Below, piece after piece: positions 157-42,792 of a stretch of 47,871 nucleotides of DNA. Position 1 is the stretch's first letter. Every line of letters begins with the position of its first letter. Both the position numbers and the translations under genes were made by a program. Below the pieces are notes generated by a model. The model did not search any database. It was given only the letters and a program-made list of their open reading frames with translations, and was not told the DNA's origin. This DNA is from an uncultured bacterium (GTDB taxonomy: Bacteria > Bacteroidota > Bacteroidia > Chitinophagales > Chitinophagaceae), in the NCBI GenBank assembly GCA_903834825.1, contig CAILKQ010000128.1, positions 1-47,871 on the forward strand, given 5' to 3'.

Positions 157-1980
157 ATGAAGGAACTCAAACAGCTGAATAAATATTTCTGGAAATACCG
201 GTGGAGACTTACCCTTGGGTTTATATTCATTTTATTGTCCAACTACTTTGGTATACTGGCGCCACAGATGACAGGCTATGTGGTAGATGAAGTGCAACGG
301 GCAATCAATCCAGTTGCCATGCCTTCCGAAAAGGTCTTTTTTGATCCATTGGTCAAGTGGTGCATTGGCGTCTTCAAAAACGCTGGGCTTGATTTTTCGC
401 AGTTGGTCATGGCCTGCGGATTGCTCTTGCTTGCACTGGCATTGATCAGGGGATTTTTTATGTTTTTGATGCGCCAAACCATCATTGTCATGAGCCGCCA
501 TATTGAGTTTGACCAGAAAAACGAGGTGTATGCGCATTACCAGCAGTTGGATGCACAATTCTACAAGGTAAACAGTACCGGCGACCTCATGAGCCGCATG
601 TCTGAAGACGTCTCAAGGGTAAGGATGTATACAGGACCTGCCCTGATGTACCTGATGAACCTTAGCATACTGATTGCAATCAGCCTGTTCTACATGTTCA
701 AAAAAAATGCTCTATTGTCTGCTTATGTTCTTGCACCTTTGCCATTGCTGGCCTTTGCCATGTATTTTGTCAACATCTACATCAACAAGAAAAGCGAGAA
801 AATACAAGCCCAATTGAGCACCCTAACCAGTCTGGCGCAGCAGTCCTTTTCTGGAATAAGGGTCATCAAATCCTACAACCAGGAGAAGTCATCCCTGGGT
901 TTTTTCGACGCAGAAAGCGAAGGCTACAGGAAAAGTGGAATGGCACTCTCTACCATGGAAGCGGTTTATTTTCCGGCCATTGGATTGCTGATTGGATTAA
1001 GTACGCTGTTGACAATTTATATTGGAAGCATCTATCAATTGGAACACCGCATCAGTGCCGGAACCATCGCGGAGTTTGTGGTCTATATCAACATGCTTAC
1101 TTTTCCCGTTTCTGCCATTGGCTGGGTAGTATCTAACACCCAAAGAGCGGCGGCTTCCCAAAAACGACTCAATGAATTCCTTCAAATAAAATCCAATATC
1201 ATTGAAGTCAAGGATGCTGAGAGCCTTGAAAAAATTGATCTTCTGGAGTTTGATGCGGTAGATTTTACCTTTCCTCATACAGGGATAAGGGCAGTTAAGG
1301 ACTTTAGCCTCAGTATAAAGCGCGGCGAAAAAATTGCATTGATTGGCAAGACCGGTTGTGGTAAATCCACGGTAGCCCAGTTGTTGATCAGGATGTTTGA
1401 TCCACAGAAAGGTCAAATCAGGTTGAATGGGAAAAATATAAATGGACTCAATCTTGATTCATTGAGAAAATTGGTCAGTTATGTTCCACAGGATGTTTTT
1501 TTGTTCAGCGATTCCATCCACCACAACATCAATTTTAGTTCCGGTGAGGAGGATATTTCCAAGGCAAAAAAAGCTGCCGAAAACGCGGTGATCCAAGATG
1601 AGATTGAGGCATTGCCCAATGGATTTGAAACGATGATAGGGGAGCGAGGTGTTACACTTTCTGGGGGACAGAAGCAACGGATATCCATTGCTAGAGCGCT
1701 TTCCAAAGAAAATGACCTATTGATATTTGACGACTGCCTAAGTGCTGTGGATGCCAATACCGAGCACAAGATAGCCTCAAACCTTAACCATTATTTGGTG
1801 AATAAAACGGCCATCATCATCACCCATAGGATTTTCCCATCCTTTGTTTTTGATCAAATCATTGTCATGGAGGATGGTATGGTCTTAGAAAAAGGCACCC
1901 ATGAGGCATTGGTCAAAGCCAACGGGTATTATGCCAATTTATTGAGAACCCAGCAAATGGATGCTGGTCTTCCTCAATAA
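157..1980 (+). CDS. ABC transporter, exporter-type half-transporter (TM domain fused to ATPase)
   Basis: This 607-residue half-transporter has an N-terminal six-helix ABC exporter domain (about residues 15-330) and a C-terminal nucleotide-binding domain. Visible motifs are Walker A GKTGCGKST (397-405), signature LSGGQ (501-505), Walker B LLIFD (521-525) and a switch His in IIITHR. The residue after Walker B, normally the catalytic Glu, is Asp526, as in MdlA-like exporters. It likely acts as a dimer in the inner membrane, exporting a lipid or drug; the substrate cannot be read from sequence. It is a single gene with no second ABC subunit beside it. An imperfect -7 box (TAACTTTA, 142-149) lies seven bases before the ATG, so the leader should be very short. 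Confidence 0.9.
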   Translation: MKELKQLNKYFWKYRWRLTLGFIFILLSNYFGILAPQMTGYVVDEVQRAINPVAMPSEKVFFDPLVKWCIGVFKNAGLDFSQLVMACGLLLLALALIRGFFMFLMRQTIIVMSRHIEFDQKNEVYAHYQQLDAQFYKVNSTGDLMSRMSEDVSRVRMYTGPALMYLMNLSILIAISLFYMFKKNALLSAYVLAPLPLLAFAMYFVNIYINKKSEKIQAQLSTLTSLAQQSFSGIRVIKSYNQEKSSLGFFDAESEGYRKSGMALSTMEAVYFPAIGLLIGLSTLLTIYIGSIYQLEHRISAGTIAEFVVYINMLTFPVSAIGWVVSNTQRAAASQKRLNEFLQIKSNIIEVKDAESLEKIDLLEFDAVDFTFPHTGIRAVKDFSLSIKRGEKIALIGKTGCGKSTVAQLLIRMFDPQKGQIRLNGKNINGLNLDSLRKLVSYVPQDVFLFSDSIHHNINFSSGEEDISKAKKAAENAVIQDEIEALPNGFETMIGERGVTLSGGQKQRISIARALSKENDLLIFDDCLSAVDANTEHKIASNLNHYLVNKTAIIITHRIFPSFVFDQIIVMEDGMVLEKGTHEALVKANGYYANLLRTQQMDAGLPQ

Positions 1981-39240: not shown

Positions 39241-39608
39241 ATTGCCGCAATACGCTATCGCGTTGAGCAATCAACGAGGAAAGTCCGGACAACATAGAGC
39301 ATCGCACCGGTGAACAGCCGGGTCTTGTGAAAACAAGAACAGATAGTGCCACAGAAAATAACCGCCTCAACTTGTTGGGGTAAGGGTGAAAACGGGAGGT
39401 AAAAGCTCCCGGCGTTATGCAGTAATGCATACCGGGGGTAAACCTTGCGTGTTGAAATGCCACATAGGTCAGGGCAACCTTCGGGTGGGGAATGACTCGT
39501 TCTCTCTCTTTGAGGCCTTGATGGGTAGGCAGCTTGATCACAAAGGGTAACTTTTGTGACAGATAAATGATAGCCTTGTACAGAATCCGGCTTATTACTT
39601 GCGGCACC
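39241..39608 (+). ncRNA. rnpB: RNase P RNA, bacterial class A
   Basis: The catalytic RNA of tRNA 5' maturation. Conserved core elements are GAGGAAAGTCCGGAC (39277-39291; P4 5' strand and CR I), ACAGAAAATAACCGCC, a GGTAAGGGTGAAA-type P10-12 region, and ACAGAATCCGGCTTAT near the 3' end (P4 3' strand and CR V). P1 is formed by TGCCGCAA (39243-39250) and TTGCGGCA (39599-39606). The 5' end therefore lies within four bases of the upstream stop codon; a -7-like TACCTTAG (39232-39239) includes that stop. A strong terminator follows. Confidence 0.95.
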
Positions 39609-39616
39609 ACATTAAA

Positions 39617-39646
39617 AATGCCTTCTCAAATGAGAAGGCATTTTTT
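39617..39646 (+). terminator. rnpB intrinsic terminator
   Basis: A perfect 12-bp stem, AATGCCTTCTCA (39617-39628) and TGAGAAGGCATT (39631-39642), is followed by a T-run. Confidence 0.93.
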
Positions 39647-39675
39647 CTTAAAAAGGTTTAATTCCAATGGAATGA

Positions 39676-39759
39676 TCAATTGTTGTCTGCATCGAATGTT
39701 TCGAAAAGCAATGCTTCAGCAATGAAAGAGCTGTTTCCTGCAATGATGGTTAATAGCAT
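39676..39759 (-). CDS. possible 27-residue peptide, tentative
   Basis: A short frame on the minus strand encodes MLLTIIAGNSSFIAEALLFE followed by TFDADNN. It lies 56 bases downstream of the 49-residue membrane protein gene on the same strand. The frame is open upstream of the ATG (a hydrophobic AISGLFTAV stretch precedes it) but has no standard start codon there. It could be a small exported peptide, a degraded gene end, or chance. Confidence 0.2.
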   Translation of the reverse strand: MLLTIIAGNSSFIAEALLFETFDADNN

Positions 39760-39815
39760 GACTGCGGTAAATAAACCTGAAATAGCTTTTCTACAGTCTA
39801 AAAAAACAATAAAAA

Positions 39816-39965
39816 TTAGATGAGGTCTAATGCTTTAGCAAAAGTTGTAACCAAAGGAACTACAGTCAGCGATACCATTGAAGGTAAAAAAAGATAAACC
39901 ACAACACAAAGTGCTATAGAGAGGAAAAATAAAATCCAATACACATTCTTTTGGCTCTTGGTCAT
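39816..39965 (-). CDS. small single-pass membrane protein (49 residues)
   Basis: An unrecognised small protein: short basic N-terminus MTKSQKN, then a hydrophobic helix (VYWILFFLSIALCVVVYLFL), a Pro, and an amphipathic C-terminal segment (VSLTVVPLVTTFAKALDLI). A perfect -7 box (TATATTTG, 39991-39984) with a -33-like TTTA 19 bp further upstream sits 18 bases before the ATG, which supports a real gene. It lies in the ~460 bp between rnpB and malQ, divergent from malQ and convergent with rnpB. Function unknown; a membrane stress or regulatory peptide is possible. Confidence 0.6.
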   Translation of the reverse strand: MTKSQKNVYWILFFLSIALCVVVYLFLPSMVSLTVVPLVTTFAKALDLI

Positions 39966-39983
39966 CTTATTGAGTTTGAAAGG

Positions 39984-39991
39984 CAAATATA
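39984..39991 (-). promoter_or_regulatory. -7 box of the 49-residue membrane protein gene
   Basis: The minus strand reads TATATTTG followed by CC, a perfect match, with TTTA 19 bp upstream as a -33 candidate. The leader would be about 14 nt. Confidence 0.6.
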
Positions 39992-40107
39992 CAAAGCGAT
40001 TCTATTTTCTTAAAATCTTAATCCCTGCATTCTCAATAATTTTTAATGTGTATTGATTACACTAATTTAAATAATGTTTAAATTGTACTCCCTATACACA
40101 TTGATTG

Positions 40108-42792
40108 ATGAATATTAATATATACCTGAGATTTTCTACCCGACCAGGACAAATGTTGAAGATTCAGGTAGATTTTCCTGGAGACGAGCATGCTGAATTT
40201 CCTGTTATTTATCCGATGCGTTATGTAGATCATTCTCATTGGCATATTCAGCTTGCTTTAACCGAAGATCAAACTGGTGCCAATGAAAAACTCACTTATC
40301 AGTATCTTTTTGAAGATGAGACTGGAACGGTGACCAGGGATTGTTCCAAAAACAGGTTCATTTCACTGAAAAAGCAAAAATCTGAACTGGTATTGCTGGA
40401 CAGTTGGGTTGATATGGGTGCTGTTTCCAATGTTTTTCATACATCACCTTTTGAACATATATTTTCTGTTCAACGAAAAGCTGCCAAAAATTTACCACTT
40501 AAAGCCGGATATACTCGTTTTACCATTGATGCTCCAATGCTTTCCAATGATTATCAATTGGGGTTGATGGGTAATTTGGATGTTTTGGGGAATTGGTCTG
40601 TTTCCAAAGTGCTTACAATGCAATTCAATGGCACCCATTGGATTGCTGATATAGATGCTGCTCGTACCCCAATTCAATTTGAATACAAATATTGTTTGCT
40701 GGATGCCTCCGGTAACTTTATTGGCTATGAAAAAGGGAATAACAGGCATGTCAGTCTTCAGCAAAAATCACAACTCACTTGCTTGATTCAAGATGGATTT
40801 GCCCGTTTTGACCACATCTGGAGAGGAGCAGGTATTGCCATTCCTGTTTTCAGTTTGCGTTCTGCCCAAAGCATGGGTGTTGGAGAATTTACTGATATCA
40901 ACCTGCTGGTGGATTGGGCAGAAAAGGTATCCCTCAGGATGATTCAACTCCTTCCTGTCAATGATACAACCTCTACACATACAAGGGCTGATTCTTATCC
41001 TTACGCTGCCATATCTGCGTTTGCACTTCACCCTATTTATGCTTCAATTGAAACCATTGCCGGGAAAAAGCATGCAAAGCAAATAAATTCTTATATCTCT
41101 CGAAAGGATGAATTGAATGCTTCCCCAGGTGTTGATTATGAAACCGTCATGGAATTGAAGTGGGATGCTTTGACCGTCCTTTATCAATCCATGAAGAATG
41201 ATGTTTTTCAAGAAGTTGACTATGGAAATTTCTATCTTGAAAACAAGTCATGGTTGGTTCCTTATGCTGCTTATGGTTTTCTCCGAGACAAATTCGGCTC
41301 TCCCGATTCCTCAACATGGGGTAAATATGCTTCATTCAATGATTCACTCATCAATGAACTATGTGCCCCAGGCGCAGAAAATTTTGATGCCATAGCATTG
41401 CATTATTTTATCCAATATCAGCTGCACCTTCAACTGAAAAATGCCCATGATTATGCAAACAGCAAAGGCATTATTCTTAAAGGCGATATTGCCATAGGTG
41501 TACACAGAAATGGGGCAGATACCTGGACGCAGCCTTCGTTATACAACCTAGACATGCAGGCAGGTGCACCTCCAGATGATTTTGCGGTAAAAGGCCAGAA
41601 CTGGGGTTTTCCGACCTACAATTGGGAAACCATGCAATCAGATGGTTTTGCCTGGTGGAGACAACGTTTCCAGCAAATGTCTAACTATTTTGATGCTTTT
41701 CGGATTGACCATATCCTTGGTTTTTTTCGCATTTGGTCTATACCCGATCATGCCATTGAAGGCATCATGGGCAGGTTTGTACCTGCCATTCCCGTTTCAA
41801 GGAATGAATTTGAGCAAAGGGGAGTTTTTATTGACAACAATCGATACTGCAAACCCTATATCACTGATGCTGTAATTGGACAACTGGCAAGCCATTTACA
41901 GGCTGATGCAAAACATTTTCTAGAATCGAACGGAGATGCTACTTATCGGTTCAAATCGATTTTTGATACACAACGTAAAATTGAAGAATATTTCAACGCT
42001 GAAGAACAGGATGTTGCTAAAAAAGGGTTGAAACAACTTTTATTCAATCTCCATGCTAACGTTGTTCTCTGGTCTGATGGTGAAAACAAAGATGGTTTCC
42101 ACTTCCGTTTCAATGCTTCAAAAACCCTGTCATTTCAGTACCTGGACTCCCATGCCCAGCAACAACTTTTTTCCTTGTATGATGATTATTTCTACCACCG
42201 GCAGGAGCAAATCTGGAAGCATGAAGCACTTGAAAAACTTCCGGCTTTAAAACTGTGCACAGATATGCTCATCTGTGGAGAAGACCTGGGAATGGTTCCC
42301 CAAACTGTTCCTGCCGTCATATCATCACTTGGTTTCCTGAGCATGGAGGTTCAAAGAATGCCCAAACAGTTGAATACCCTCTTTTTTGATCCATCCAATG
42401 CTCCCTATCTCTCTGTTGTCACCCCATCTACCCATGACATGAGTACCATCCGTGAATGGTGGCTGGAAGACAGGAAAAAGACCCAAGAATTCTATAATGA
42501 ACAGCTCTGGCAACACGGAGAAGCGCCTGCTGCTGCAACAAGTCAAATCGTTCGTTCTGTTGTACTTCAACACCTGGCTTCACCAGCCATGTGGGCAGTA
42601 TTTCAATTGCAGGATTTGCTTGCCACAAATGATTCTCTTCGATTGGAAGATCCGTATGCAGAACGGATCAATATCCCAGGAGATCCTAACCATTACTGGA
42701 GATTTAGAATGCACTTGCCTATTGAAGAACTGATTAAAAATGATACCTTTAATCAAGACCTCAACTATTTAATCAGTGTGAACAACCGATAG
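40108..42792 (+). CDS. malQ: 4-alpha-glucanotransferase (GH77) with N-terminal CBM20 starch-binding domains
   Basis: This 894-residue protein resembles plant DPE2: two CBM20-like domains (about residues 1-105 and 130-240; second contains GLMGNLDVLGNWSVSKVLTM) precede a GH77 barrel. Expected catalytic residues are nucleophile Asp534 (FRIDH), acid/base Glu725 (CGEDLG) and Asp777 (STHDM). It disproportionates malto-oligosaccharides and transfers glucosyl units from maltose to glycogen-like acceptors. There is no signal peptide, so it is cytoplasmic. ATG 40108 is chosen over TTG 40105. A 7-bp inverted repeat (ATTTAAA/TTTAAAT, 40065-40083) lies upstream. The dipeptide epimerase gene follows after 49 bp. 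Confidence 0.94.
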   Translation: MNINIYLRFSTRPGQMLKIQVDFPGDEHAEFPVIYPMRYVDHSHWHIQLALTEDQTGANEKLTYQYLFEDETGTVTRDCSKNRFISLKKQKSELVLLDSWVDMGAVSNVFHTSPFEHIFSVQRKAAKNLPLKAGYTRFTIDAPMLSNDYQLGLMGNLDVLGNWSVSKVLTMQFNGTHWIADIDAARTPIQFEYKYCLLDASGNFIGYEKGNNRHVSLQQKSQLTCLIQDGFARFDHIWRGAGIAIPVFSLRSAQSMGVGEFTDINLLVDWAEKVSLRMIQLLPVNDTTSTHTRADSYPYAAISAFALHPIYASIETIAGKKHAKQINSYISRKDELNASPGVDYETVMELKWDALTVLYQSMKNDVFQEVDYGNFYLENKSWLVPYAAYGFLRDKFGSPDSSTWGKYASFNDSLINELCAPGAENFDAIALHYFIQYQLHLQLKNAHDYANSKGIILKGDIAIGVHRNGADTWTQPSLYNLDMQAGAPPDDFAVKGQNWGFPTYNWETMQSDGFAWWRQRFQQMSNYFDAFRIDHILGFFRIWSIPDHAIEGIMGRFVPAIPVSRNEFEQRGVFIDNNRYCKPYITDAVIGQLASHLQADAKHFLESNGDATYRFKSIFDTQRKIEEYFNAEEQDVAKKGLKQLLFNLHANVVLWSDGENKDGFHFRFNASKTLSFQYLDSHAQQQLFSLYDDYFYHRQEQIWKHEALEKLPALKLCTDMLICGEDLGMVPQTVPAVISSLGFLSMEVQRMPKQLNTLFFDPSNAPYLSVVTPSTHDMSTIREWWLEDRKKTQEFYNEQLWQHGEAPAAATSQIVRSVVLQHLASPAMWAVFQLQDLLATNDSLRLEDPYAERINIPGDPNHYWRFRMHLPIEELIKNDTFNQDLNYLISVNNR

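Follow-up and report, generated by a model that had tools for sequence, protein, structure and literature searches.

The 49-codon open reading frame at 39816-39965 on the minus strand of the window (the whole 47,871-nucleotide stretch of DNA analysed here, contig 128 of a 2.6 Mb source genome in 205 contigs) is a real gene under purifying selection, and belongs to a micro-protein family of broad occurrence in the order Chitinophagales, where each carrier genome has a single copy. We see an even chance that the fuller reading holds, namely that this is a genuine, probably monocistronic and constitutive gene of a hairpin family in Chitinophagales whose product likely serves a larger inner-membrane complex in an accessory or stabilising role, as one of its subunits. 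The frame encodes MTKSQKN...AKALDLI and is documented by its translation, its homologues, dN/dS and AlphaFold2 modelling. It lies between the convergent rnpB gene (39243-39610, plus strand; class A RNase P RNA, Rfam RF00010, 232.7 bits) and a divergent gene at 40105-42792 (plus strand) that is conserved in relatives and which we take to be malQ-like, encoding a putative 4-alpha-glucanotransferase, a name that comes from the first-pass annotation. An alternative TTG start of the same frame would give 56 amino acids and overlaps the promoter box described below, so ATG is the likelier start. From ATG to stop the gene measures 150 bp. The first-pass annotation had placed it below the usual gene-calling cutoffs, which does not hold for Prodigal, where according to the available part of its description start-stop pairs are scored above 90 bp (PMC2848648).

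A strong homologue is present in 30 of 37 same-genus genomes, the source genome included, in a search of 60 genomes; these matches have E values of 1.3e-13 or better and run from residues 1-4 to residue 49. The other seven same-genus genomes had no strong match to the 49-residue peptide. The alignment of the 30 same-genus sequences has no internal gaps. When the window gene is compared with its six nearest relatives in the comparison (L002-L007), dN is 0.020-0.029 against a dS of 0.41-0.70, and the third codon positions hold 11-16 differences, the first and second together 2-4; for the remaining 23 relatives dS exceeds 1 or was not computable. Given the many homologues and this strongly synonymous substitution pattern, the frame is more than a chance one. 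Both the peptide conservation and the synonymous-site bias by which the first-pass annotation proposed to judge its gene are thus present, and its central claim, a real small membrane-protein gene with a promoter of its own, stands.

That promoter is represented by a -7 box, TATATTTG, at 39984-39991 (minus strand), with 18 nt from the end of the box to the ATG; it matches TAnnTTTG perfectly, as first reported, and no second TAnnTTTG occurs on either strand within 39600-40200. The window contains 232 ATG-started ORFs of 40-60 codons, nested starts counted, and only two of them, the 49-codon ORF among them, have a TAnnTTTG box 14-33 nt upstream. Among 71 distinct homologues (counted after removal of three loci that lack an in-frame ATG close to the match, and of repeated identical peptides), 67 carry TAnnTTYG 10-40 nt before the ATG, at actual distances of 14-31 nt, where shuffled sequences give a mean of 2.7 and a maximum of 9; the strict form TAnnTTTG is found in 50 of the 71 against a shuffled mean of 1.9. 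These expectations are to be read with the sequences being related and the shuffles preserving single-base composition only. A second set of 52 loci, which remained from 60 after removal of eight without an ATG and which comes from partly overlapping genomes, has TAnnTTYG within 14-40 nt of the ATG in 45 cases (shuffled mean 1.4). With TATATTTG shortly upstream of its start, the window gene fits the primary-sigma -7 element of Bacteroidota, TAnnTTTG. As far as the accessible text of the source goes, the published consensus in this phylum is TTTG / TANNTTTG, with a -33 element that is much less evident (PMC6847099). The -33 element proposed for the window gene is only plausible: 19 nt from the box the window reads TTTA, where its homologues are enriched in TTG (19 of the 64 sequences among the 71 whose box falls inside a narrower search range have TTG 19-21 nt upstream of the box, against a shuffled mean of 3.8, and none of 500 shuffles reached as many). 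An E. coli-type scan predicted no more promoters than in its own shuffles, and this promoter and terminator scan was not relied on. A -7 box whose spacing from the start stays steady may help to validate micro-genes in this phylum.

The reach of the family was followed with profiles of increasing breadth. One built from the 30 same-genus sequences found, at E 0.01, a match in 114 of the 396 genomes searched in the order, and a broader profile, A3, matched 247 of the 396 at E 0.001 (23 of these genomes being themselves rows of A3), with one match per genome. The A3 matches are spread over 106 of the 164 genera of the order, and among its good-quality genomes 242 of 350 are carriers. In a draw of 395 genomes across the class, A3 matched 24 and profile A5 matched 25, the latter divided into 12 inside the order and 13 outside. 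Ten of the 13 outside matches are trusted, and they fall in three families of the class. Eight of these ten genomes are rows of A5, which makes their strong A5 values partly a matter of construction; under A3, whose rows include no genome of this group, the E values lie between 5e-4 and 2.8e-14. The three distrusted matches comprise two that are partial and lie in longer frames (G687 and G527) and one, in G723 (locus L091, 1501-1644, plus strand), that is distrusted because the genes around it resemble those at L066, a locus of the same family. G723 is a 57% complete genome from another order, and its contig is likely to be mis-binned.

The family is also absent from identifiable parts of its home range. 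At least 19 same-family genomes have no A3 match, including all eight genomes listed for genus g40, and G325 gave no convincing match to A3. A fuller search of the 19 listed same-family and eight same-genus non-carriers returned a best E value of 0.0155, for a partial match in a long frame. These absences weigh against the fuller reading, as whatever the gene serves must be dispensable, or be served otherwise, in the same-family genomes that are without it. Whole listed genera of the same family, g40 and also g24 and g25, are without the micro-protein, so that a comparison of gene content is possible.

Members of the family are 47-57 residues long where the start is clear (52 loci). AlphaFold2, with an alignment of 36 sequences, models the window protein as two helices, at residues 3-26 (39888-39959, minus strand) and 28-45 (39831-39884, minus strand), with a mean pLDDT of 93.3 and a pTM of 0.68; over the five models the mean pLDDT ranges from 78.5 to 93.3. 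For a distant member the helices are placed at 4-24 and 26-44 in a model of moderate quality (pLDDT 80.9, pTM 0.51). The first-pass annotation had described a single helix followed by an amphipathic tail, and the tail is better read as a second membrane helix: mean hydropathy is 2.6 over residues 8-26, residues 29-43 have a Kyte-Doolittle mean of 1.71, and across 41 aligned members the helices average 2.13 and 1.46, both being hydrophobic. Several positions are strongly constrained in these 41 members. Trp10 is invariant (41/41), Ser16 (38/41), Ala45 (39/41) and Asp47 (39/41) are nearly so, and 40 members have a proline at position 36 or 37, within the second helix, which ends in Ala45 and is followed by Asp47.

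By the positive-inside rule, the positively charged end of a membrane protein is cytoplasmic. The first eight aligned residues have a mean net charge of +2.2, a count that omits the first unaligned residues, which are often acidic, and on this charge the N-terminal end would be cytoplasmic. The last seven aligned residues have a mean net charge of -0.34 and so give no positive-inside support for a cytoplasmic C-terminal end, which would follow from the predicted hairpin itself. The protein is accordingly predicted, from the structural models, to be a 49-residue inner-membrane protein that folds tightly into a hairpin of two helices, its N- and C-terminal ends both being cytoplasmic.

None of the Pfam, NCBIfam and PHROGs families searched names this protein, which bears out its initial description as unrecognised. 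These libraries gave only sub-threshold or scattered matches, in one to three members each, the best of the scattered ones having E values of 0.0021 (PHROG 7781, one member) and 0.0044 (PF01956, three members). The sequence search of the PDB gave no match up to E 10, and Foldseek against the PDB gave four, the best at E 7.3, a two-helix hairpin carrying little fold information. Among the weak profile matches of the window protein the best is to the Lnb transmembrane domain, PF25221 (residues 3-41, E 0.013), and was rejected: its 16 bits are under the Pfam cut-off of 25.2, only three of 36 members show it, and the NCBIfam model for Lnb, NF051878, is 394 positions long against the 49 residues here. 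We treat this similarity as a chance resemblance of hydrophobic stretches. FixQ/CcoQ (PF05545), likewise a small hydrophobic protein, was rejected at 12.2 bits against a cut-off of 29. A description of the family was not found in the titles and abstract openings of the literature searched by text, a kind of search that cannot match a sequence, and the available portion of the main text of the Pro-SMP finder paper makes no mention of Bacteroidetes, Bacteroidota, Chitinophaga or Flavobacterium (PMC10903887).

The hairpin protein would, by analogy, pack against a larger inner-membrane complex in an accessory or stabilising capacity, in the manner of CydX or AcrZ. This role is the most likely one for a protein that is very small, single-copy and expressed from a housekeeping-type promoter, and that conserves Trp10, Ser16, the proline of the second helix, Ala45 and Asp47. 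CydX and AcrZ are single-helix proteins. They resemble the window protein in being hydrophobic and of about 50 residues or fewer; it differs from them in its predicted hairpin and in its occurrence in Bacteroidia, the comparison having been made through the library and PDB searches only. In E. coli, as stated in the accessible parts of the two sources, CydX belongs to the cytochrome bd complex and the binding partner of AcrZ is AcrB (PMC4325964, PMC7267776). A bolder version of the proposal can be put forward only tentatively, and we hold it to be the less probable way of seeing the family. On this view its members would be hitherto undescribed micro-proteins, close to core in Chitinophagales and occurring in some other Bacteroidia as well, whose two-helix inner-membrane hairpin would serve a Bacteroidota-specific envelope machine as a constitutive general subunit and would have been overlooked on account of its size. 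A single-copy membrane micro-protein that is conserved together with its promoter box through much of an order makes a good candidate for a subunit still missing from a general membrane machine. Direct tests in cultured members are made possible by the profile, by the residues that hardly vary and by the genera without the gene.

The genomic neighbourhood bears on a different reading, in which the protein would take part in glycogen or maltose metabolism together with its divergent neighbour malQ. With 1.5 kb flanks, malQ adjoins the gene in all 30 same-genus loci and in 17 of 25 further ones. A wider set of 60 loci, mostly one per genus, was drawn half from the same family and half from other families, with flanks of up to 6 kb (five loci being shortened by contig ends). 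Here the malQ cluster, its identity resting on a match to the window's own gene, occurs in 19 loci, all of them among the 30 from the same family, and is divergent in 17 of the 19; it was not found within about 6 kb in the other 11 same-family loci or in any of the 30 other-family loci. The synteny with malQ proposed at the outset is thus real in the genus and in much of the family, and does not extend beyond it, which makes a role tied to malQ unlikely. The position beside rnpB is similarly local, as it recurs in 21 of 29 close-relative loci (18/20 and 3/9, with flanks of about 1.5 kb, some of them cut by contig ends) and in none of the 60 loci from other genera.

Other neighbour clusters in the 60 loci, to which we assign presumptive names from their sequences, are epimerase-like (15 loci, all same-family), dnaK-like (9), pyrophosphatase-like (5) and TauE-like (3). 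No partner gene or neighbour cluster is common to all clades in the set. An upstream neighbour lies on the same strand in 25 of the 60 loci, and some copies may be co-transcribed with it. A promoter box that is retained next to changing neighbours is what one would expect of a stand-alone unit, and the gene looks like one.

A more specific form of the subunit idea, a small accessory subunit of a terminal oxidase resembling CydX or CcoQ, is quite improbable. Known small oxidase subunits are of similar size, and one of 36 family members matches FixQ at E 0.029, below the cut-off. Co-occurrence was examined in 21 hand-picked carriers and 19 listed same-family non-carriers, genomes that are not independent of one another, and shows no clear link of the family with either ccoN or cydA. 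At E 1e-20, ccoN is slightly commoner in carriers (19/21 against 14/19), and over its curated cut-off the counts are 18/21 and 13/19; however, two carriers (G117 and G201) have no ccoN match at all. For cydA the count is nine in either group, out of 21 carriers and 19 non-carriers, which leaves 12 carriers without a match.

The size and hydrophobicity of the protein would also suit the membrane toxin of a type I toxin-antitoxin pair, which we consider very improbable. The family is carried as one copy per genome through much of an order, its housekeeping-type promoter box is conserved, and a tblastn search with the window peptide at E 0.1 found nothing in the plasmid or phage records, all of which argue against a toxin. 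The strand opposite the gene has no TAnnTTTG within 39600-40200, a weak argument, as malQ shows no such box either.

Downstream of the gene, on the same strand, lies a remnant of another gene (39676-39797, minus strand) that consists of a signal-peptide-like stretch (39714-39797) followed by the last residues of the protein; compared with L003-L005, two stretches are missing from it. A related gene occurs near the peptide in 22 of 29 close-relative loci, a fuller copy being, for example, that at 568-1173 (minus strand) of L004. Three of these genes were read out (201, 158 and 255 amino acids), all of them downstream, on the same strand and secreted-looking by eye, and the family has no Pfam match. 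Such an arrangement would be expected if the 49-codon frame served the downstream gene as a leader peptide or regulatory uORF. This is highly improbable, as the peptide is still conserved where the downstream gene is broken, in the window, and where neighbours vary between clades, and as two relatives, L031 and L036, show on inspection by eye a separate TACCTTTG between the peptide gene and its downstream neighbour. Finally, short ORFs are common, as the 232 in the window illustrate, but conservation across the order, synonymous bias and conservation of the promoter make the idea of a chance ORF practically negligible.

Beyond the remnant, a perfect 14-base inverted repeat with the loop AAAT and with A- and T-runs is located at 39614-39645, and similar repeats are matched in relatives in both orientations. 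It is probably a bidirectional terminator shared by rnpB on the plus strand and the facing unit on the minus strand.
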